The translations under genes and the position numbers were made by a program. 42,775 nucleotides of DNA from Desulfobulbaceae bacterium (GTDB taxonomy: Bacteria > Desulfobacterota > Desulfobulbia > Desulfobulbales > Desulfocapsaceae), in the NCBI GenBank assembly GCA_008933635.1, contig WBUQ01000018.1, positions 1 through 42,775 on the forward strand, given 5' to 3'. Under the pieces are notes generated by a model that made no database searches, was not told where the DNA came from, and saw only the letters and a list, made by a program, of their open reading frames with translations. The first letter of the stretch is position 1, and each line of letters starts with the position of its first letter. This document shows positions 4,932 to 35,773 of the stretch, in pieces.

Positions 4932-5007
<76 letters not shown>

Positions 5008-5017
5008 CTGTAATTTC

Positions 5018-5055
5018 AAGGGGTTAAGTCAAAAAATGACTTAACCCCTTTTTTG
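5018..5055 (+). terminator. Rho-independent terminator after tRNA-Phe
   Basis: A perfect 14-bp stem (5018-5031 with 5037-5050, arm AAGGGGTTAAGTCA) and a 5-A loop, running into TTTTTTG. It ends the tRNA transcript. Read on the other strand it could also stop transcription coming from the integrase. Confidence 0.9.
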
Positions 5056-5056
5056 T

Positions 5057-5085
5057 TTTTGCCCTGGTTTTGCCAAGATTTTGCC
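5057..5085. repeat. Three phased TTTTGCC repeats, candidate integrase arm sites
   Basis: TTTTGCC occurs at 5057-5063, 5068-5074 and 5079-5085, exactly 11 bases (one helical turn) apart. The cluster sits between the tRNA-Phe gene and the 3' end of the adjacent tyrosine integrase. Phased short repeats at this place are typical of arm-type binding sites for phage-like integrases, which have a separate N-terminal arm-binding domain. Confidence 0.5.
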
Positions 5086-5105
5086 AAAATTGAATCTCCC
5101 AGTTC

Positions 5106-6392
5106 CTATTTATTGTTACTTATCATCCTGTTATGGATGTCATTCATGGCTTTGCCGTCATGATTTGCTGCACTCTTTACGAATTTGGCATAGACCCTGA
5201 TTATCATATCAGTGTCCCGATGCCCCATGACGTGTGCAATCCATAACGGGTTTTCTCCGAGGGTCAAAGCCGTTGTAGCGAAACTATGCCTAGTCTGAAT
5301 CATAGGGCGGAATGGAATCTTAGCCATTTCAAGGGCCGGTCTCCATGTCCTGTTACTGAGATTTGCATGATTCAGCTGATTACCGGCGGTTGTGCAAAAT
5401 AGGTACTCGCTGTTCAATCTCTCACAAATAGCCTTTTGATCCAATAAAACTGCTTTCATTGCTGGGAGTAATTGGATTTCTCGACGACTATACTTGTTTT
5501 TTGTTCTACCTTCCATTCTGTGCCCTTGCTCATCGAGTGTCATCGCTCTGCTAATAGATATGTGACCGCTTGCCCAGTCTATGTCGTCTGGCTTCAAGGC
5601 GAATTGTTCTCCTTGCCGAATTCCCGAGCCAAAAGCAAATTGGAAATAGGGTTTCCAGTGGTCTGGCAAGGTGTGGATGATTCGCTGTTGCTCATCAATA
5701 GTAAAAGGTTCGATCTTGTAGGTTGTGGAATCCTCGGGAAGATTTTTGTATCCAAAAAATGGGTTGAAGGTTGAACCCCAGTTGAATCGAAGAGCGGCTT
5801 GCTTGCAAATCATCCTAACTGGGATTAGGCACTTGTTGAGAGTTTTATTGCTGACTATTTTGTCTCGGAATTGTTGTTGTTTTGCCCAGGCGTTGAACTC
5901 TTCGACCATTGCTGGTGAGATTTGTGAAAAACGCAACTCTCCAAAGAAGGGAATGATGTACAATTCAAGTTGGCGTTTATAATCAAGTAAGGTGCGTGCT
6001 GTGACACGCCCAGTTGTTTTGAGCAAGTCATACCACTCCCAGGCGAAGCGTTGAAAGACAAGCTCATCAGGGCTCAAGGATCGCCCGGAAATTTTTCTCT
6101 CAAGCTCTGAGAAGAAATCTACCTTCTTGCTCTTGGGAAACACCTTCCGGAATACAAATGTCCCGTCATGGATGGAAAGCATTATTCTGTCAAGCTGGTC
6201 TCTAACGAGCTTGGCGTTCTGCTGCGACCACGGCAGTCCCGATGATTCGCGGACTCGTCGGCCCAAATATAGAAAATCAACATATACTTTACCGTTGATT
6301 TCACGGACGGTACCTTCCTTGTTAACGTTAAGGGCAAGCTGTTTGCTTCGTATTGGTTTATTGACATGCTCTTGAATATTGTCTTGATACAT
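5106..6392 (-). CDS. Tyrosine-recombinase integrase of the tRNA-Phe element
   Basis: A phage-type site-specific integrase of 428 residues. The N-terminal part (EGTVREINGKVYVDFLYLG) looks like an arm DNA-binding domain. A SAM-like core-binding domain follows (FAWEWYDLLKTTGRVTARTL). The C-terminal catalytic domain has the first Arg in GSGIRQGEQ, a Lys/Arg-rich beta turn, QTRHSFAT, the GHRDTD histidine, and the nucleophilic Tyr in RVYAKF. I chose ATG 6392 because AGGGAG lies about 9 bases upstream; the longer GTG-initiated frame begins inside a GGAGG-like sequence. Being adjacent to and convergent with tRNA-Phe marks this as the element's left end. The gene is much more AT-rich than the chromosome to its left. 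Confidence 0.93.
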   Translation of the reverse strand: MYQDNIQEHVNKPIRSKQLALNVNKEGTVREINGKVYVDFLYLGRRVRESSGLPWSQQNAKLVRDQLDRIMLSIHDGTFVFRKVFPKSKKVDFFSELERKISGRSLSPDELVFQRFAWEWYDLLKTTGRVTARTLLDYKRQLELYIIPFFGELRFSQISPAMVEEFNAWAKQQQFRDKIVSNKTLNKCLIPVRMICKQAALRFNWGSTFNPFFGYKNLPEDSTTYKIEPFTIDEQQRIIHTLPDHWKPYFQFAFGSGIRQGEQFALKPDDIDWASGHISISRAMTLDEQGHRMEGRTKNKYSRREIQLLPAMKAVLLDQKAICERLNSEYLFCTTAGNQLNHANLSNRTWRPALEMAKIPFRPMIQTRHSFATTALTLGENPLWIAHVMGHRDTDMIIRVYAKFVKSAANHDGKAMNDIHNRMISNNK

Positions 6393-6490
6393 AGAAATTA
6401 GCTCCCTGTCATATAGCACCTCCTCTGTTACTATTTAACCATTTAATAAATAATAACAGAGGAAGTGAATATCTCAAAGTATCCTTTAAG

Positions 6491-14900: not shown

Positions 14901-16004
14901 ATGGCAATCGCTATTCACATTGAAAAAGTTAGGCAGGGGCTGCGGGAAGGCAGATTTACTTCAGAGGCGGCTGTTTCGCAGGGAATACTTTTGCCGGCTT
15001 TGCATGCGCTTGGGTGGCCAGTTTTTGACACATCAATCGTAATTCCAGAATTTTCGGTTGAAGGCCGACGCGTCGATTATGCATTATGCCATCCTGAAAA
15101 CAGACCATCGGTATTTATCGAGGTCAAGAAGGTTGGATTATCCGAAGGCGCAGATCGACAGTTATTCGAATATGCTTTCCATCTTGGTGTACCGATGGCG
15201 ATCCTTACGGACGGCCAAGAGTGGAGTTTTTACCTTCCTGGTGAGCAAGGCCGTTACGACGAACGCAGAGTTTATAAACTTGATCTTCTGGAACGAGATA
15301 TTGCCGAGGCAAAAAGCAGACTTGACAGATATTTGAGCTACACCAATGTCTGTTCAGGTGCCGCTCTAAAGTCTGCACGTTCAGATTATCAGAATGTGGC
15401 ACGTGTCCGAATTATCGAAACGAATTTTCCTAAAGCATGGGAAGCTTTGCTTAAAGATCAGGATTCGTTGTTGTTGGAGCTGCTGGCTGAGAAAGTTGAA
15501 GACCTTTGCGGGTATAAACCTGATTTAGATATTTGCAGTCAATTTCTGGAAATGCAAATTCAGAACAACAAACATGTTGAGAAATATGACGTTGATAAAA
15601 AACCTCCTATAAAACAGACGAAGCCATTCACTCCTGCTGCCAGCACCAATCACTCTCGAACCGTTGACAATTTTAATTTCATATTCAAGGGACAAGAATT
15701 TCCTGCTCGTTCGGCGAGAGAGGTTATGACAAAACTTTTCCAACTGCTGTCTCAAGAGGATAGCGGGTTTCTTGATAGATTTGCATCACGTAAACATGGC
15801 AAGAAAAGGAGATATCTTGCAAGGGACAAACATGATCTCTACCCTGGTCGACCTGATTTGGCAGAACAACACTCTGTTGAAGTTGTTGCAGGATGGTGGA
15901 TTGGGACTAATTATAGCCGGAGAAACATACAGGATATAATCGAATTGGCACTTGAAGTTGCTGGGCCACAACTTCGTAATGCAACCAAGGCAAATGTATT
16001 GTGA
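14901..16004 (+). CDS. HsdR_N-type nuclease-domain protein
   Basis: 367 residues. The N-terminal ~140 residues match the type I restriction R-subunit N-terminal nuclease fold: TSEAAVSQGILLPALHALGW, VDYALCHPENRPSVFIEVKK (the D...E-x-K PD-(D/E)xK core), DRQLFEYAFHLGVPMAILTD and GQEWSFYLPGE. No helicase motifs follow, so it is a stand-alone relative, not HsdR itself. The C-terminal ~110 residues (NFNFIFKGQEFPARSAREVM to IQDIIELALEVAG) form a second domain; its W-x-x-G-T-N-Y/S pattern (GWWIGTNYSR) is common beside restriction-like nucleases. AGGA 7 bases before ATG 14901 supports the start. Its role is probably defence or element maintenance. An attC-like sequence follows its stop. Confidence 0.8.
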   Translation: MAIAIHIEKVRQGLREGRFTSEAAVSQGILLPALHALGWPVFDTSIVIPEFSVEGRRVDYALCHPENRPSVFIEVKKVGLSEGADRQLFEYAFHLGVPMAILTDGQEWSFYLPGEQGRYDERRVYKLDLLERDIAEAKSRLDRYLSYTNVCSGAALKSARSDYQNVARVRIIETNFPKAWEALLKDQDSLLLELLAEKVEDLCGYKPDLDICSQFLEMQIQNNKHVEKYDVDKKPPIKQTKPFTPAASTNHSRTVDNFNFIFKGQEFPARSAREVMTKLFQLLSQEDSGFLDRFASRKHGKKRRYLARDKHDLYPGRPDLAEQHSVEVVAGWWIGTNYSRRNIQDIIELALEVAGPQLRNATKANVL

Positions 16005-24676: not shown

Positions 24677-25246
24677 ATGAAAAATACCCAAGGTCAACCA
24701 CGGTTATTTACTGCAATCGCTCTTTCCCTGATAGTTGGATTTGTGGGTGGTGTGATTGTCACTGTCTACAAAACCCCATCAATAGTATCTCAACTGCCAC
24801 AATCTCAACAAAATGAACCAACAGATAAGGAAATAAAAAAACATATCAAACATATGGAAGATGAGGTGGCAAAAAAACCGAAAGACTCCACAGCGTGGAT
24901 CCAACTCGGTAATGCCTACTTTGACTCTGAAACACCGGAAAAAGCCATTGATGCGTATCTCAAAGCATTATCTCTATCTCCCAATAACCCTGATGTCCTT
25001 ACTGATCTCGGAGCAATGTACCGTCGAGTCAAGAAGCCCGAAAAGGCGATCGAATACTTTGATAAGGCAGCGCAAATTGACTCAACGCATGTGCAATCGA
25101 GATTTAACAAGGGAGTCGTTCTTTTTCATGATTTGAACGATAAAGAAGGAGCAATAAAAGCCTGGAAGGAAGTTGCTAAACTGAAACCGGATTTTTCCAT
25201 CTCAACAGGTCAAACTATCGTGCAGCTTCTAGAAAGCGTTAAGTAG
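24677..25246 (+). CDS. Membrane-anchored TPR protein (CcmH/NrfG-like)
   Basis: 189 residues. An N-terminal transmembrane helix (AIALSLIVGFVGGVIVTVY) is followed by a linker and three tetratricopeptide repeats (AWIQLGNAYFDSETPEKAID, VLTDLGAMYRRVKKPEKAIE, SRFNKGVVLFHDLNDKEGAI). TPR proteins of this layout accompany cytochrome c maturation genes, where the periplasmic repeats hold apocytochrome c near the haem ligase. It lies 47 bases before resB on the same strand, with GGAG about 8 bases before the ATG. Confidence 0.8.
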   Translation: MKNTQGQPRLFTAIALSLIVGFVGGVIVTVYKTPSIVSQLPQSQQNEPTDKEIKKHIKHMEDEVAKKPKDSTAWIQLGNAYFDSETPEKAIDAYLKALSLSPNNPDVLTDLGAMYRRVKKPEKAIEYFDKAAQIDSTHVQSRFNKGVVLFHDLNDKEGAIKAWKEVAKLKPDFSISTGQTIVQLLESVK

Positions 25247-25293: not shown

Positions 25294-26667
25294 ATGATAT
25301 CTAAAGAAAATCCCATCGTGGAATTTTTCTCTTCTGTCCGTTTAGCTATATTAATTATCTCTCTGCTCGTGGTGACCTCAATCATAGGCACCATTCTCCC
25401 ACAAGAGCAGCCGCTAGGGTTTTATATAGAAAAATACGGACAAACTAACGCCATTATTATGGAGATACTCGGTTTTTCTAACACGTATGCTTCCATGTGG
25501 TTTAAAACTCTTCTTTTCGTTTTATGTCTCAACCTCGTTGTCTGTTCTTTGGTCCGGGTTCCTCAAGTATTGAAGTTTATAAAAAATGATAACTTGAGTG
25601 CTGATATTACAAAAATTAAGCGAAGTAAGGACAAATTCCTATTCGCCTCAAATGAAGACAAGCAAACGGCAGAAAACGAAATTCGCTCGGTGTTGAAAAA
25701 AAATAATTGGAAAATTCGATCAAAGCAAAATGCTGATTTCCTGCTGTTATTTGCTGAAAAATCCGCATGGTCCAGATTAGGTGCCTATTTTGTGCATGTG
25801 AGTATTCTCATCATTTTTCTGGGTGCTCTCATTGGTAGTATTTTCGGTTTTAAGGCCTTTGTTATGCTTCCTGAAGGAGAAAGCACCGCTGATGTTTATC
25901 TGCAAAATGATGAGCAATCAAAAATCCCTTTGCCGTTCAAATTACGCTGCGATAGTTTTGATATTGAATATTACGAAAATAGTATGCCTAAAGAATACCG
26001 CTCAGAGTTAGTAGTTCTTGAGGAGAACAAAGAGGTCGTGAAAAGGCAGATCACTGTTAATGATCCCCTCAGCTATGCAGGATTGACATTTTATCAGTCA
26101 AGTTATGAGCCCATGAGTGATCAGTACACAGTAGAACTCACCAAAAAAACTAGCTCCAAAGAAGACAATAAGACAAGGATGGCTAGACAGAAGTTGTATG
26201 TAGAACCAAGGGAAAAAATGGAATGGAAGGATAAAAAAGTGAGCTTCGAAGTCGTTGAAACAGGGGTTGATGGCCATGGTCACGGCCCTTATACATTGTG
26301 GTTTGACGATGAATTGGGAGAGCCTGTTCGACTTATTGCAGAAGATAAAAAACACGTGACGATTAACCGTGGAGACATCTCATATACTTTGATGATTAAG
26401 CAACGCTACGCAACGGGACTTCAAGTAGTGAAAGATCCAGGAGTTTGGCTTGTGTATATAGGGTTCGGCTTAATGCTTTTTGGGCTGTACGTCGCGTTCT
26501 TCATGTCTCATCGACGGCTGTGGATCTCTGTTCAGGAAACTGGATCGACTTTAACAATTATCCTGAGTGGGTCCAGCAATAAAAACCAGGCGGGTTTTTT
26601 AAAGACTCTTGAGGATATTGCTGCCGATCTGCTCAACGAGAAATCTCTCGGACTCAGGAGGATATAA
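25294..26667 (+). CDS. resB: Cytochrome c biogenesis protein ResB (Ccs1)
   Basis: 457 residues. ResB forms, with CcsA, the System II haem exporter and apocytochrome c haem lyase of the cytoplasmic membrane. Transmembrane segments appear near residues 13-31 (LAILIISLLVVTSIIGTILP with the typical PQEQP after it), 67-85 (FKTLLFVLCLNLVVCSLVRV), 165-185 (YFVHVSILIIFLGALIGSIF) and near the C terminus (WLVYIGFGLMLFGLYVAFFM). A large periplasmic domain lies between the last two, including the conserved NDPLSYAGLTFYQSSYEP. The His before the third segment (YFVHVS) is the expected haem-proximal residue. ccsA begins one base after its stop. Confidence 0.95.
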   Translation: MISKENPIVEFFSSVRLAILIISLLVVTSIIGTILPQEQPLGFYIEKYGQTNAIIMEILGFSNTYASMWFKTLLFVLCLNLVVCSLVRVPQVLKFIKNDNLSADITKIKRSKDKFLFASNEDKQTAENEIRSVLKKNNWKIRSKQNADFLLLFAEKSAWSRLGAYFVHVSILIIFLGALIGSIFGFKAFVMLPEGESTADVYLQNDEQSKIPLPFKLRCDSFDIEYYENSMPKEYRSELVVLEENKEVVKRQITVNDPLSYAGLTFYQSSYEPMSDQYTVELTKKTSSKEDNKTRMARQKLYVEPREKMEWKDKKVSFEVVETGVDGHGHGPYTLWFDDELGEPVRLIAEDKKHVTINRGDISYTLMIKQRYATGLQVVKDPGVWLVYIGFGLMLFGLYVAFFMSHRRLWISVQETGSTLTIILSGSSNKNQAGFLKTLEDIAADLLNEKSLGLRRI

Positions 26668-26668
26668 C

Positions 26669-27517
26669 GTGAACTCCGTTCAATTTTTAGGATATGCAAC
26701 GTTTATTTATCTCGCAGCGACCTTTCTTTATGTTGCACTTGCAATTTTTAGAATCGAAAGGCTTGGCTTGTTCGCAACAATTTTTACGATTATCGGGGTG
26801 TTGGTGAATAGCATCGGGATAGGTTGGCGATGGGTCGAGTCATATCAGCTCGGCATTGGCTATATCCCACTTACCAATATGTATGAGTCGCTCGTATTTT
26901 TTGCCTGGTCCATCGCTATTGTGTATCTGGTAATTGAGTATATTTATAAAACTAAATTCTTTGGCAGTTATGTAGTGCCATTTGCGTTCCTGGCAATGGC
27001 CTATGCCACTTTTTCAGCGGAATTTTCAAAAGATATAAAACCACTCCTGCCAGCCTTGCAGAGTAATTGGCTGGCGGCCCATGTCATCACCTGTTTCATC
27101 GGCTATGCCGCATTTGCCATAGCGTGTGGTCTCGGGATTCTTTACCTGATCAGAATTAATTCTGAAGGCAAAGGAGGAGAATCTCGTGCATCCGAAGCAA
27201 CAAAACCCAAGTTAGAACAGCTTGATATCATAATCTATAAAATGATTATTTTTGGTTTCCTCTGGCTTACTGCTGGAATCATCACGGGCGCGGTTTGGGC
27301 AAATTCAGCCTGGGGAACTTACTGGAGTTGGGACCCAAAAGAAACCTGGTCTCTCATCACTTGGTTTATTTATGCACTTGCTCTGCATGCTCGATATACC
27401 AGAGGTTGGGATGGTGCGCGCATGGCCTGGGCTGCTCTGGTAGGTTTTCTGTCGGTTGTTTTTACCTACTATGGTGTCAATTTCCTCCTCTCTGGTTTGC
27501 ATAGCTATGGTGGGTGA
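26669..27517 (+). CDS. ccsA: Cytochrome c biogenesis protein CcsA (ResC/CcsB)
   Basis: 282 residues from GTG 26669, with AGGAGG 7 bases upstream; this beats a longer frame overlapping resB. It is a polytopic protein with about eight membrane helices. The haem-binding WWD segment is WGTYWSWDPKETWSLITW, and conserved His residues flank it (AAHVITC and LHARY, plus LHSYGG near the end). CcsA carries haem across the membrane and joins it to the CxxCH of apocytochrome c together with ResB. It lies directly after resB, and the DUF1573 gene follows. Confidence 0.96.
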   Translation: MNSVQFLGYATFIYLAATFLYVALAIFRIERLGLFATIFTIIGVLVNSIGIGWRWVESYQLGIGYIPLTNMYESLVFFAWSIAIVYLVIEYIYKTKFFGSYVVPFAFLAMAYATFSAEFSKDIKPLLPALQSNWLAAHVITCFIGYAAFAIACGLGILYLIRINSEGKGGESRASEATKPKLEQLDIIIYKMIIFGFLWLTAGIITGAVWANSAWGTYWSWDPKETWSLITWFIYALALHARYTRGWDGARMAWAALVGFLSVVFTYYGVNFLLSGLHSYGG

Positions 27518-27667
27518 GAAAAAAATACAACCTTTGCCTGATAGGTTGTGGAAAACGTCTTTCAGAGGCATTTCGGTCTAGGGATACAACAGCGAATTGG
27601 GCCTATCACTATAGTGCTAACGCCCTGTCACAAACAAAGAATTGGGACATTCAACATAAGGAGACAG

Positions 27668-28129
27668 ATGAATACAGGGAGACAATCTATCAATGGTTCG
27701 GCAACTCAATTCAAACAGGTCTCGAACCGTTTGATCTTATTGGGTTACATAATTGCGATGAGTTTTTTGGCCCTCTTTCTGACCTATTTACCAACTACAT
27801 TATACGGCAGCAGCGGCCCCATCGCCTCAATTTCAGAGCAGCAATATGATTTTGGAGAGGTTTCTGACGGAAGTGAAGTCGAGCACGATTTTCTTATTAC
27901 GAATCGCGGAACTGAGCAATTGATGATCACCGATGTTAAAACAGGTTGAGGTTGTACTGCTGTCTCGTATCCGAGACAAATCCCAGCCGGAGGCGAGGGA
28001 AAACTTCAAATTAAGGCTCAGATAAGTAAGAAGAATAGTCTGCAGTATCGTCGGATAATTACCGTTACCACAAACGATCCTGTAAGGCCAACAATAGAGC
28101 TCGTCTTGAGTGGTTCAATAAAGAACTAA
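27668..28129 (+). CDS. DUF1573 protein with in-frame UGA (probable selenoprotein)
   Basis: 153 residues if TGA at 27947-27949 is read as selenocysteine (position 94). Start ATG 27668 follows AAGGAG. Residues ~26-45 are a membrane/signal helix (LGYIIAMSFLALFLTYLPTT). The DUF1573 Ig-like domain follows: YDFGEVSDGSEVEHDFLITN, GTEQLMITDVKTG, then UGA, then GCTAVSYPRQIPAGGEGKLQ to the TAA at 28127. DUF1573 proteins normally read (S/T)CGCT here, so the UGA replaces the first Cys of the CGC motif exactly. The frame stays open and conserved for 59 codons after it. A 7-bp hairpin at 27961-27978 starts 11 bases after the UGA, in the right place for a bacterial SECIS. The gene sits between ccsA and a DsbA-like oxidoreductase. 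A nonsense mutation is the alternative. Confidence 0.8.
27961..27978 (+). promoter_or_regulatory. Candidate bacterial SECIS hairpin
   Basis: TGTCTCG (27961-27967) pairs perfectly with CGAGACA (27972-27978) around the loop TATC. The loop begins 19 bases after the in-frame UGA, within the usual 16-37 base window for SelB-binding bacterial SECIS elements. Confidence 0.6.
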
Positions 28130-28192: not shown

Positions 28193-29059
28193 ATGAAATA
28201 TTTAAAATTTCTTATCCCCAGCGTAGCTTCATTGATGGTAGCACTCTCGTCGCCCACGTTTGCCGTAACTAACCCTAGTGGGCAAGATGACCGAGTCCAG
28301 TGGAAGCAACTCGGAGATCTGCAATTGCCGAGTAAACCGCTTGATTTTGCGTATTCATTGGATGGGAATTATGCCTTTATTCTGACAAGCAACAAGGAGA
28401 TCCTGGTCTACAACCAACAGGGGAAACTGCAAGGGCGTATCCCTGTCGATGAGGGAGTGTCGGCAATCGATATCGCTCCTCTTGGACAATTCCTTTATCT
28501 TATTGATAACAAAGATAATCGTCTTGCCACTCTGTCTGTCGATTTTGTCATCGATATTGATACCTCGGCTTCTCCAATCAAGGGGGCTCCAGATGCGCCA
28601 GTTACCATTGCCGTCTTTTCCGATTTTGAATGCCCATATTGTAGCAAATTGGTTCCTCTCCTTGATCAAGCATTTAAAAACAATCCCAAAACAATAAAAA
28701 TTGCGTTTAAAAATCTTCCTCTGAAAATGCATGAAATGGCTGGACCTGCTGCATTAGCCGCTTTGGCTGCGAACGAGCAGGGGAAATTCTGGGAGTTTCA
28801 TGATCGTTTATTCACCGAGAACAAACTCACCGCTGATTCATTCACAAAAATCGCAACTGAACTTGGACTGAATCAAGAACGTTTTAATGCGGACGTGAAT
28901 TCGCCTGTTTTGCTTGGAAAAATCAAAAAGGACGTTGAGGAGGCCGATAGGCTCGGCATAACTGGGACACCAGCCGTGTTCGTCAATGGCAAAAAGCTGA
29001 ACCAACGTACCATAACCGAGCTCCAACGGATGATTAACGAGGAATTAAGTAAAAAATGA
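28193..29059 (+). CDS. DsbA-like periplasmic thiol:disulfide oxidoreductase
   Basis: 288 residues with a signal peptide (FLIPSVASLMVALSSPTFA). Residues ~40-115 look like a short beta-propeller fragment (FAYSLDGNYAFILTSNKEIL, IDIAPLGQFLYLIDN), the kind of blade repeat often found ahead of such domains. The thioredoxin-fold domain begins near residue 125 (GAPDAPVTIAVFSDFECPYC, with C147-x-x-C150) and ends with the cis-Pro loop GITGTPAVFVNGK. AAGGAGA 8 bases before ATG gives a strong start. It probably keeps apocytochrome or selenoprotein thiols in the right state for the ResB/CcsA system upstream. The next gene overlaps by four bases (ATGA). Confidence 0.93.
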   Translation: MKYLKFLIPSVASLMVALSSPTFAVTNPSGQDDRVQWKQLGDLQLPSKPLDFAYSLDGNYAFILTSNKEILVYNQQGKLQGRIPVDEGVSAIDIAPLGQFLYLIDNKDNRLATLSVDFVIDIDTSASPIKGAPDAPVTIAVFSDFECPYCSKLVPLLDQAFKNNPKTIKIAFKNLPLKMHEMAGPAALAALAANEQGKFWEFHDRLFTENKLTADSFTKIATELGLNQERFNADVNSPVLLGKIKKDVEEADRLGITGTPAVFVNGKKLNQRTITELQRMINEELSKK

Positions 29060-32095: not shown

Positions 32096-33304
32096 TTACC
32101 CTTCCTCTCTTTCTTTGAGAACTGTTTGATCGGATTGTGACGATAGTTCCTTTTGCAAAAGACGTAAGTTGAATTTTCCTCCGTCTGGATCAACAATGTA
32201 TTTCTTTACCTTAGGCATAATCTTCTCCATGCTTTCGAGATAAAGACGATTCAGAGTGACATCTGATGATGCTTTTTGCAGGTCTTGTTCATATTCAACG
32301 AGCATTTGGCTGAAACGACCAGCTTCACCACTGGCTTTGTTGATAACCGAAATTTTATATGCTTCGGCCTCTTGAAGAATCTTGGCGGCATCACCTCTTG
32401 CTTGAGGAACGACGGTATTTTGGTATCCCCATGCATCATTGACGGTTTTCTCGCGATCCTGATTGGCATTTGATACGTCCCGGAATGCTTCGGCCACCTC
32501 CTCCGGCGGATACACCTTATTCAAGTTAATCCCCACCAATTCCAGCCCGCTACGATATTTATCCAATAATCCTTGCGCCTTGTCACGTATCAATTCCTGC
32601 AGGCGCTCTTTGCCTATGGTCAAAATATCGTCAACCCGCATTCCGCCGCCTATTTCTGTGATGGAGGTTCGGATGGTTTCATTGATAAGTTGACAATCTC
32701 GGTAGTTGACGCTGTACAGATAGTCGGATGCATCCTTGATGCGATATTGAACAACGGCTTGGATATCAACGATATTATCGTCCCCTGAAAGGAATTGAAT
32801 GACCTCGGGTGATGAGTGGATCGATTCGTGTTCCGGCAGCAAAATGCCGATTCCTTCCCGGCGAACCGTGGCTACATTAACAATGTCAACTTCCTGAAAA
32901 GGCCATGGCAGACGGTAGTGCATACCTTCGCTAATGCCTTGGTTGACCTCCTTGCCGAATAGACGCACCACGGCCACCTCACCAGGATTGACGACGTAAA
33001 CGCCACTCAGCACGTAGAGCAGAACTGAGAGTAAAACACTTCCAAAAAGTGTTTTTCGAAGACTCAAATTGGCAAAGGCGCGGCGGATATCACTCTTTAC
33101 AGATCCGCGATCACCGCTTTCTGTCTGAAAAATACTGGTCACGAAGTGGGCGGCTTCTTGAAGGGTTTTCCAGAATGCAAAGCCACGAGTTCGAAGTTCA
33201 GCGAGTACGGGAAGAGTATTCTGTGTCGATGTGTTCTCTACTGACTGTTGCGGGCCATCTGTATTAGGATTGTTTTTTGACGATTTATCTCCTTGATCAT
33301 TCAT
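32096..33304 (-). CDS. hflK: FtsH protease modulator HflK
   Basis: 402 residues. The cytoplasmic N terminus is followed by a membrane helix (LFGSVLLSVLLYVLSGVYVV) and an SPFH/band-7 domain: VNPGEVAVVRLFGKEVNQGI, GMHYRLPWPFQEVDIVNVAT, FLSGDDNIVDIQAVVQYRIK. A long coiled coil follows (GDAAKILQEAEAYKISVINK). HflK and HflC form a large cage around FtsH in the inner membrane and tune its proteolysis. The ATG at 33304 overlaps the hflC stop by 8 bases. In most bacteria hflK precedes hflC; here it follows, and a third SPFH protein lies further upstream in the operon. Confidence 0.93.
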   Translation of the reverse strand: MNDQGDKSSKNNPNTDGPQQSVENTSTQNTLPVLAELRTRGFAFWKTLQEAAHFVTSIFQTESGDRGSVKSDIRRAFANLSLRKTLFGSVLLSVLLYVLSGVYVVNPGEVAVVRLFGKEVNQGISEGMHYRLPWPFQEVDIVNVATVRREGIGILLPEHESIHSSPEVIQFLSGDDNIVDIQAVVQYRIKDASDYLYSVNYRDCQLINETIRTSITEIGGGMRVDDILTIGKERLQELIRDKAQGLLDKYRSGLELVGINLNKVYPPEEVAEAFRDVSNANQDREKTVNDAWGYQNTVVPQARGDAAKILQEAEAYKISVINKASGEAGRFSQMLVEYEQDLQKASSDVTLNRLYLESMEKIMPKVKKYIVDPDGGKFNLRLLQKELSSQSDQTVLKEREEG

Positions 33305-34217
33305 TTTGTGAGAGACCTCCTTCGGCGATAATTGTTGATGCGTTGTTGCCGAAATATTTCAAGATACTGGATTCGCTTGGCAATATCGTGGTGGTTTTTT
33401 CATCAATAAATTTTTCATAAGCTTCTAATGACCGGGTGAATTCGTAAAATTCCGGTCCTTTTTGATAGGCGCTCGCGTATATACGGATTGCCTGGGCGTC
33501 ACCTTCTCCCTTTGTAATCTCGGCTTTTTCACGTGCCTGGGACAGCAGCACCTGCATTTCCTTGTCTGTTTCAGCGCGGATCTTCGACGCTTCTTCCGCG
33601 CCTTCAGAGCGATATTTGCGGGCTATTTGCTCGCGTTCCGCTCTCATCCGCTGAAACACACTGAGTTTATTTTTTTCAGGGAAGTTCAAAACCTTGACCC
33701 GAACATCAACCACCGCCATACCATAGGGTTCAACCTTTTCATTGGTCACCTGTGTTACCCTATTCATCATCTCCGGTAATTTCATACCTGTTTCCTCGGT
33801 AGTTATTAGCGAGGATAACTCGTATTGACCAAAGGCTACTCCTAGCTCCGAGGAGATGATATCCGTCAATCGATCACGTGCGCCTGCCGTATCACGAACC
33901 GTCTTCATAAACAACACCGGATCTTTGATATTCCATACCGGGTAGGACTCGGTGACGATATTTTTTTTGTCTTTGGTCAGGAATTCGGTTTGATTTGGTA
34001 GGTAGACCATCATCCGATTGTCGTAACGCCGAACACTCTGGACAGGATCGGGAAGTTTCCAGTAAAGTCCAGGTTCTTTGATGGCACGAACAGGCTTGCC
34101 GAACTCGGTAACCACCACATATTCAGTTTGGTCGACCTGGAAAAAGATCAGATTGACGGCAAAAAAGCCTGCCACTAAAAAACTTGCTGCTATAACCATC
34201 ATTTTTGTTGTTTTCAC
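33297..34217 (-). CDS. hflC: FtsH protease modulator HflC
   Basis: 306 residues from GTG 34217; the GTGA overlaps the stop of the preceding fusion gene, and GGAGGG lies upstream. Membrane anchor: MMVIAASFLVAGFFAVNLIF. The SPFH domain follows (QTEYVVVTEFGKPVRAIKEP, GLYWKLPDPVQSVRRYDNRM). HflC signatures include DVRVKVLNFPEKNKLSVFQR and MRAEREQIARKYRSEGAEEA, then KGEGDAQAIRIYASAYQKGP, where HflC proteins carry the GEGDAEA block. It partners HflK encoded next. Confidence 0.94.
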   Translation of the reverse strand: MKTTKMMVIAASFLVAGFFAVNLIFFQVDQTEYVVVTEFGKPVRAIKEPGLYWKLPDPVQSVRRYDNRMMVYLPNQTEFLTKDKKNIVTESYPVWNIKDPVLFMKTVRDTAGARDRLTDIISSELGVAFGQYELSSLITTEETGMKLPEMMNRVTQVTNEKVEPYGMAVVDVRVKVLNFPEKNKLSVFQRMRAEREQIARKYRSEGAEEASKIRAETDKEMQVLLSQAREKAEITKGEGDAQAIRIYASAYQKGPEFYEFTRSLEAYEKFIDEKTTTILPSESSILKYFGNNASTIIAEGGLSQNE

Positions 34218-35773
34218 TTTTGCACTCCCTCCAGGACAGATCCGCCATCCAAGCGGCCGTTAAACATCCATAAATCGGTGGTCTGAATATCGATGCGTTT
34301 GTCGACGATTAATTTGTCAACCCCTGGCAGTATTCTTTCCATGGTTTCGATATAAAGACGGGTTTGGGTAATTTCTCTGTTTTCATTAAAAGCGGTCAAG
34401 CGGGTTTGAAAAGAACCCGCATCTCCTCGGCTACGGGTGATTTTTTCTTCCCGGTAGGCTTCGGCTGTTGCAGCGATTTCGGCGGCCTGCCCGCGACTAG
34501 CAGGAATGACTTCGTTTTTGTAGGCATAGGCTTCGTTGAGATATGTGACCTGATCTTCTTTGGCGCTGGCCACATCCTGGAATGCGGGCAAGACCTCCTC
34601 GGGTGGGCTAGCTTTGACTAATTGAACCGCAATTACACGAACACCAGCTTTTGTCTTATTCAGTATTTCTTGAGCCGCAGTGAGGGTTTTTTCCTGGATG
34701 TCAGCCTTACCTTCGGTGAGAACAGTATCCACGCGGTGGCGGCTGATGATCTGGCGGAGGGCTGATTCAGTGGCAAGACCCACAATTTTTTCCGGTTCGG
34801 AGACGCCGTAGGCAAAATCAAAAGCACTCTGAACGGAATAGTGTACCGTGGCGCCCACTTCGATAAGATTTTCATCGCCAGTGAGCATCAGGGATCTTTG
34901 CGTTTCGGCTGTACGAACTTTGTCGACATCAACGAGATCCACCGTGCTGAAGGGCCATGGTAGTCGGTAGTGTATTCCTGGTTGGATATCGGTTGCCGTA
35001 GGTTTTCCGAATCGCTTTTCGATGGCCACCTGATCCGATCCGACAGTATAAATACCTGTGGCGAGATAGGTTGTCAGGAGAATTGGTGCGCTGATCTTGC
35101 GCAAGCATGGGCTCCATTTTGCACCATGTTGCAACAAGAAATTGCCATGCAGCACATCCGGAAGACCACCGGCTCGCAATGCAATCGATGCGCCAAACAT
35201 GATTTCCAGGCCAGCCCAAGCAACCAAGGCAACCACAACAACCGCAGCCAAGCGATCCATGGTAGTTAGGCCGACTTGGTAGCCGACCAAGCCGACTACA
35301 ACGACCATGGAACTGTACATATCTAACTTGGAATGGAAGCCGTCAGCGATCAAGCTGGGTGAATTGGTTTCTCGGCCTACGAAAATTTTATAACGGGCCA
35401 TAAAGAAGCAGATGACGATAGTGAGTCCGGCACCAGCGGTGACAACCGGTACGTTGGTAAGGGTCGTTTGTTCGGCCCGAATGACCTCCATGAAAATGTC
35501 GAAGCCGGCGTAAAGAATCAATAGACCAATGATCAAGGCCACGACATTTTCGATACGGCTGATGCCGTGACTACGTCGTACGTCTTCCCTTCGGGTCAAG
35601 ATCAAACCTGACAGCACGATTCCCGAGACAAAGATATCCGAGAAGGAATGCCACGCTCCTGCTTTCAGCGCCAAGCTGCCAGAATACCAGGCCATGCCTA
35701 ATTTTAGTATTATCAGACCGACATTGACTCCGATAGTCACTGCCAGTGTTCTCTCTTTTCTGTTGAGCTGCAC
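34214..35773 (-). CDS. Fusion of cation diffusion facilitator and HflK-like SPFH domain
   Basis: 519 residues from GTG 35773 with GGAGGAG upstream. Residues 1-203 are a CDF transporter membrane domain of about six helices. Two HxxxD metal sites, H42-x3-D46 (GAWHSFSDIF) and H147-x3-D151 (ADGFHSKLD), fall in the expected second and fifth helices. This is the His-Asp/His-Asp pattern of zinc-type CDFs. The usual cytoplasmic CDF domain is missing. From ~225 there is a new membrane helix (ISAPILLTTYLATGIYTVGS), then an HflK-like SPFH domain (SDQVAIEKRFGKPTATDIQP, GIHYRLPWPFSTVDLVDVDK) and coiled coil. The frame is continuous with no shift between halves. I infer a metal transporter built into an HflKC-like membrane ring. 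Confidence 0.9.
   Translation of the reverse strand: MQLNRKERTLAVTIGVNVGLIILKLGMAWYSGSLALKAGAWHSFSDIFVSGIVLSGLILTRREDVRRSHGISRIENVVALIIGLLILYAGFDIFMEVIRAEQTTLTNVPVVTAGAGLTIVICFFMARYKIFVGRETNSPSLIADGFHSKLDMYSSMVVVVGLVGYQVGLTTMDRLAAVVVVALVAWAGLEIMFGASIALRAGGLPDVLHGNFLLQHGAKWSPCLRKISAPILLTTYLATGIYTVGSDQVAIEKRFGKPTATDIQPGIHYRLPWPFSTVDLVDVDKVRTAETQRSLMLTGDENLIEVGATVHYSVQSAFDFAYGVSEPEKIVGLATESALRQIISRHRVDTVLTEGKADIQEKTLTAAQEILNKTKAGVRVIAVQLVKASPPEEVLPAFQDVASAKEDQVTYLNEAYAYKNEVIPASRGQAAEIAATAEAYREEKITRSRGDAGSFQTRLTAFNENREITQTRLYIETMERILPGVDKLIVDKRIDIQTTDLWMFNGRLDGGSVLEGVQK

Follow-up and report, generated by a model that had tools for sequence, protein, structure and literature searches.

An in-frame UGA beside ResB and CcsA genes of a Desulfobulbaceae bacterium: a predicted selenoprotein of the OS_HP2 (DUF1573) family

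Background

A TGA codon at positions 27947-27949 of a 42,775-nucleotide stretch of DNA from a Desulfobulbaceae bacterium (contig WBUQ01000018.1 of assembly GCA_008933635.1), the whole of which is called the window here, raises the question of whether it ends a short protein or is read as selenocysteine (Sec) within a longer one, and what such a protein might do next to genes for cytochrome c maturation. A sequence-only reading of the window had proposed a new selenoprotein, in which Sec replaces a Cys of the DUF1573 CGC motif, with a role in cytochrome c assembly.

Selenoproteins with this domain have been listed before. The GOS selenoproteome paper of 2008 (PMC2398784) tabulates OS_HP2 under pfam07610 with the motif UxC, and DUF1573 with UGC is a table entry in PMC9312934 and in PMC13188914, a 2026 review that credits the DUF1573 selenoprotein to Zhang and Gladyshev 2007 (Olavius symbiont). 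As far as these table entries go, the DUF1573 row of the two later papers is OS_HP2, the tables being linked by us through pfam07610. Among the titles and opening lines of abstracts returned by a literature search, there was no DUF1573 protein or selenoprotein tied to cytochrome c biogenesis or ResB.

Results

The following features, all on the plus strand, are considered. Handles beginning with G, C and L denote genomes, contigs and loci, and G000 is the genome of the window.

24677-25246, plus strand: TPR protein, first gene of the cluster (profile match, synteny)
25294-26667, plus strand: ResB (PF05140, 333.3 bits)
26609-27517, plus strand: CcsA/CcsB haem ligase subunit (PF01578, 188 bits; TIGR03144, 287.2 bits, cut-off 187.6)
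27658-27663, plus strand: putative ribosome binding site AAGGAG, 5' of the ATG (read from the sequence)
27668-28129, plus strand: predicted selenoprotein gene (OS_HP2/DUF1573) of 153 codons, the UGA decoded as Sec, followed by TAA (PF07610, NF041425)
27947-27949, plus strand: in-frame UGA predicted to encode Sec94, the U of U-G-C (UGA in orthologues, Cys elsewhere)
28193-29059, plus strand: thioredoxin/DsbA-like protein with CPYC (PF13462, 85.4 bits)

The frame 27668-28129 was confirmed to run through the TGA for 59 further codons to a TAA, giving 153 residues, and the same DUF1573 domain continues throughout: the Pfam PF07610 match covers residues 55-149 (70.8 bits) and spans the UGA at residue 94. 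The product scored 118.5 bits against NCBIfam NF041425, "OS_HP2 family (seleno)protein", for which the curated cut-off is 100, and the locus scored 112.4 bits in the genome scan. The UGA aligns with the first Cys of CGC in Cys homologues (for example L030, L084 and L086), just where the sequence-only reading had placed it, so that the product shares with Cys-form DUF1573 proteins the domain and the position of the motif, and with OS_HP2 a DUF1573 domain carrying U-G-C (UxC) at the active position. The open length of the frame was not taken as evidence: in 41 frames of the window 90 or more open codons precede a TGA, and seven of these, this one included, remain open for at least 58 codons beyond it. 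UGA is by default a stop, and such ordinary openness also suits a pseudogene or a real terminator, in which the UGA would be a nonsense mutation or a sequencing error and the product would have 93 residues or not be made at all. It is homology on both sides of the UGA, together with conservation of the UGA in relatives, that goes beyond chance, rather than openness or the hairpin described next.

Two hairpins follow the UGA.

27961-27978, plus strand: hairpin 1, 7 bp, candidate for the upper stem of a bSECIS (sequence, fold)
27981-28000, plus strand: hairpin 2, UCCC-a-GCC-GGA-GGC-ga-GGGA (fold)

The bacterial SECIS model, as given in PMC13188914, has an apical loop of 3-9 nt with a G among its first two nucleotides, a stem of 4-16 bp and a distance of 16-37 nt to the UGA. 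Hairpin 1 (UGUCUCG-UAUC-CGAGACA), to which the sequence-only reading had pointed, is real, with seven perfect pairs, and its spacing fits, but the rule on G holds only if the closing G-C pair is opened, which gives a loop GUAUCC that begins 17 nt past the UGA; orthologue loops lack that G (UUUCCC in G002, UUUUCC in G080b). The hairpin of this single locus is weak evidence, because 20 of 200 shuffles of its 63-nt stretch folded equally well (z -1.21) and the window holds 33 perfect stems of at least 7 bp with loops of 3-8 (~0.77 per kb); a z value this modest also counts in favour of a plain terminator or pseudogene. Hairpin 2 has a loop starting with GG that begins 39 nt past the UGA, just beyond the 16-37 nt range, and its letters are similar in relatives, yet the same letters encode a conserved PAGGEG. 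Strict covariation was not relied upon, because RNAalifold on 10 loci gave a consensus of -7.05 kcal/mol with no strong common stem, and the register of the stem shifts between subclades. A search of the window with Rfam at the gathering threshold returned a tRNA and nothing else.

The family as a whole was examined by comparing 42-nt stretches with synonymous recodings, with offsets given relative to the first UGA base. From 43 OS_HP2 loci, 32 Sec forms (own included) and five Cys forms were used, and six that the script could not place were dropped (L031, L032, L083, L092, L099 and L101). In the Sec forms the mean z was -0.90 at +3, -1.42 at +9 and -1.49 at +15, compared with -0.59, -0.44, -0.28 and -0.43 at -60, -42, +60 and +105. 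The five Cys forms fold as strongly as the Sec forms at +3 (-0.90), but the signal is weaker at +9 (-0.45) and absent at +15 (+0.26), the values at -60, -42, +60 and +105 being -0.41, -0.11, -0.27 and 0.01. With related loci and so few Cys forms, these z values are not independent tests. The own locus gave synonymous z values of -1.85 (+3), -0.01 (+9) and -1.54 (+12). The family thus shows a folding signal at the place of the hairpin, and the hairpin of the window fits the textbook model in part.

Conservation of the UGA was followed in a set of 193 genomes, the own genome among them. NF041425 matched in 12 of these and exceeded its cut-off in seven; 10 of the 14 match rows carried one TGA and the four without TGA were all below the cut-off, while all nine rows over the cut-off (own included) carried one. 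Within the genus, three of the four other genomes had no match. In a wider phylum sample, 161 of 395 genomes matched, 45 of them over the cut-off, and by hand count 43 of the 53 places over the cut-off had one TGA and 10 had none; among the weaker phylum matches listed, many lacked TGA. Both UGA and Cys forms occur among the homologues, and NF041425, as a model designed for the seleno family, may lean to Sec forms. The script assigned U to the motif in 32 of 43 loci examined.

The own gene was compared with the three syntenic orthologues G002, G017 and G080:C17. Relatives such as these might have carried stop-free Cys frames, but all three retain the UGA, and in these and in the own gene the distance from UGA to final stop is 60 codons, UGA counted. 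Between the own gene and the three orthologues, pN/pS was 0.22-0.24 over 45 codons 5' of the UGA and 0.22-0.29 over 58 codons 3' of it; among the three orthologues themselves it was 0.30-0.37 before and 0.34-0.49 after. Protein-level constraint is therefore similar on both sides of the UGA, and this purifying selection beyond a shared UGA argues against a pseudogene or terminator. A sequencing error or nonsense mutation at the UGA was rejected, as the identical codon stands in other genomes.

The genome encodes the means of Sec insertion. The draft (4.55 Mb, 240 contigs, 96% complete, 2.1% contamination, contigs grouped by binning) contains selB on C50 (360.2 bits, cut-off 242.25), selA on C127 (623.7 bits, cut-off 267.9), selD on C131 (370.1 bits, cut-off 125) and a tRNA-Sec on C5 (69 bits, gathering threshold 47), for which ARAGORN agrees (tRNA-SeC, anticodon tca). 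The selD gene carries an in-frame TGA of its own, read as AGUAAK. The Sec machinery is thus complete in the draft genome, the membership of its contigs resting on binning. Besides these genes, a thioredoxin-like gene (L106, G000:C233:4983-5450) has an in-frame UGA and reads UPHC; its score against the best-fitting model is under the cut-off, and it is a possible further selenoprotein of the same genome.

Any sense reading of TGA would leave the frame open, which would also accommodate reassignment of TGA to Trp or near-cognate read-through. However, homologues without UGA align Cys there and not Trp, the tRNA-Sec and SelA, SelB and SelD are encoded, and the CcsA and thioredoxin genes on either side both terminate in TGA, so that decoding as a residue other than Sec has a close to negligible chance of being right. 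The machinery, the curated seleno-family model that the product passes and the fact that 27668-28129 is the single DUF1573 match found in the draft genome likewise count against a pseudogene or terminator, which we regard as very improbable. We therefore conclude with high confidence that the product of 27668-28129 is a predicted selenoprotein of the OS_HP2 (DUF1573) family. Sec in place of Cys, as the sequence-only reading had it, is strongly supported by NF041425, the machinery and the UGA in orthologues, but its novelty is not: at the family level OS_HP2 is already in print, and the gene is a new example.

A model of the product was computed with U given as C to the alignment and structure programs. 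The alignment A2 has 31 rows (L034 was left out, its stretch crossing a stop), and its residues 94 and 96 are invariant by construction, because the rows were chosen for U at the motif. AlphaFold2 with these 31 sequences (mean pLDDT 88.8, pTM 0.67) predicted a helix at residues 10-39 followed by one Ig/ASH-like beta-sandwich domain, with residues 92-95 in a loop that joins strands 85-91 and 96-100 and in which the U-G-C motif starts. The top Foldseek rows were ASH/PapD-like domains (OCRL1, HYDIN, CEP192) and 2qsv of Porphyromonas gingivalis, with query TM-scores of about 0.5-0.6; 2qsv was also the sole PDB sequence match with an E value no higher than 0.1 (8.2e-4). Judging by the N-terminal helix and by the ResB/CcsA neighbours, the domain would face the periplasm. 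Within the OS_HP2 family, the version in the window is short, single-domain, helix-anchored and placed within a TPR-ResB-CcsA-thioredoxin cluster, and several homologues have a longer C-terminal part.

The neighbours named by the sequence-only reading, a DsbA-like protein and ResB/CcsA, were borne out by the PF13462, PF05140 and PF01578 matches. For CcsA, 26609 is a mechanical ORF start, and the alignment with the G002 orthologue begins at about 26669. Adjacent ResB and CcsB-type proteins are the feature by which the cluster resembles system II cytochrome c maturation clusters. The order TPR-ResB-CcsA-OS_HP2-thioredoxin was found in four genomes (own, G002, G017 and G080:C17) at 65-87% protein identity. 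Among 11 fetched OS_HP2 stretches, three had the cluster, and in the other eight none of the four partner genes was found. Among the best 20 CcsA loci, three (own included) had the whole cluster, and in 16 the stretch compared contained ResB-CcsA but neither OS_HP2 nor this thioredoxin. In the remaining one, of G046, TPR-ResB-CcsA-thioredoxin is present and OS_HP2 is missing, which ties at least the thioredoxin to the cluster. A second CcsA of the own genome (G000:C187:7819-8661, 59% identity) suggests that the cluster in the window may be an accessory one.

The adjacent thioredoxin has its own Cys/Sec switch, its motif being CPYC in the window and, through a UGA, UPYC in the same-genus G002 orthologue (L047). 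Of 30 thioredoxin loci, a first script read 15 as U-P-x-C and 11 as CPYC; two of the four that it left unresolved are UPYC and the other two, G017 and G080:C17, have no internal stop, so that U-P-x-C occurs in 17 of the 30. The thioredoxin part resembles the Rcas_1661 family thioredoxin-like (seleno)lipoprotein (NF041057) weakly, as does the Sec/Cys alternation in relatives, but its 65.3 bits fall a long way short of the curated cut-off (190), and the own copy is CPYC.

Elsewhere in the window, 4932-6419 holds a tRNA gene and, after it, a tyrosine-integrase gene on the minus strand. Together with the HSDR_N-type protein encoded at 14901-16004, these may represent an integrated element. Three Band_7 genes in a row, one with a fused cation-efflux domain, occupy 32096-35773 on the minus strand.

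Discussion

The Sec reading of the UGA leaves the question of what the protein does. The thiol-reducing partners of system II are CcdA and ResA/CcsX, and system II cytochrome c maturation is not known to include a selenoprotein. For the cluster in the window, the thioredoxin next to OS_HP2 is a candidate for such a thiol-reducing partner. In the mechanism we propose, the OS_HP2 product would be a membrane-anchored selenoprotein, for which SelB would deliver Sec-tRNA at UGA 27947-27949, aided by the downstream hairpin or hairpins. Its Sec-Cys pair would cycle between a selenenylsulfide and the selenol/thiol form and, with the thioredoxin, could pass electrons to apocytochromes or isomerise disulfides in them, and the apocytochrome CXXCH cysteines would thereby be reduced for ResB/CcsA.

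Because three other genomes keep the linkage, a role in cytochrome c assembly, as suggested by the sequence-only reading, is plausible, but it is a role that we still infer. On the synteny in four genomes, a part for OS_HP2 in thiol handling for system II has a probability a little short of even. The competing explanation agrees on Sec and contests the role alone: the protein would carry out periplasmic thiol, peroxide or metal chemistry without a cytochrome c job, and its linkage to the cluster would be incidental. In line with this, six other TGA-bearing relative loci (G051, G077, G005, G098, G080:C71 and G080:C3) were found to have no neighbour of the window beside OS_HP2, and CcsA, ResB and the thioredoxin are absent beside 29 phylum loci (L076-L104) in stretches of about 2.3-3.3 kb. 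Weighing further against the cytochrome role, just three of 10 other TGA- or Cys-type neighbourhoods show the link, and 16 of the best 20 CcsA loci have ResB and CcsA with neither OS_HP2 nor this thioredoxin. Incidental linkage is, however, at odds with a five-gene order kept at such protein identity in three other genomes, and with G046, where the thioredoxin at least stays with the cluster. We consider incidental linkage an evenly balanced possibility.

More tentatively still, cytochrome c assembly might have a branch that depends on selenium: an OS_HP2 subclade would have been built into an accessory system II cluster, and Sec in OS_HP2, joined in some genomes by Sec in the thioredoxin (UPYC), would reduce or isomerise apocytochrome thiols. 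The linkage to ResB/CcsA offers a clue to the function of a family that is otherwise only a table entry in the three papers cited above. Furthermore, the standard code cuts the protein at residue 93, and an annotation that recognises the UGA regains a redox protein.
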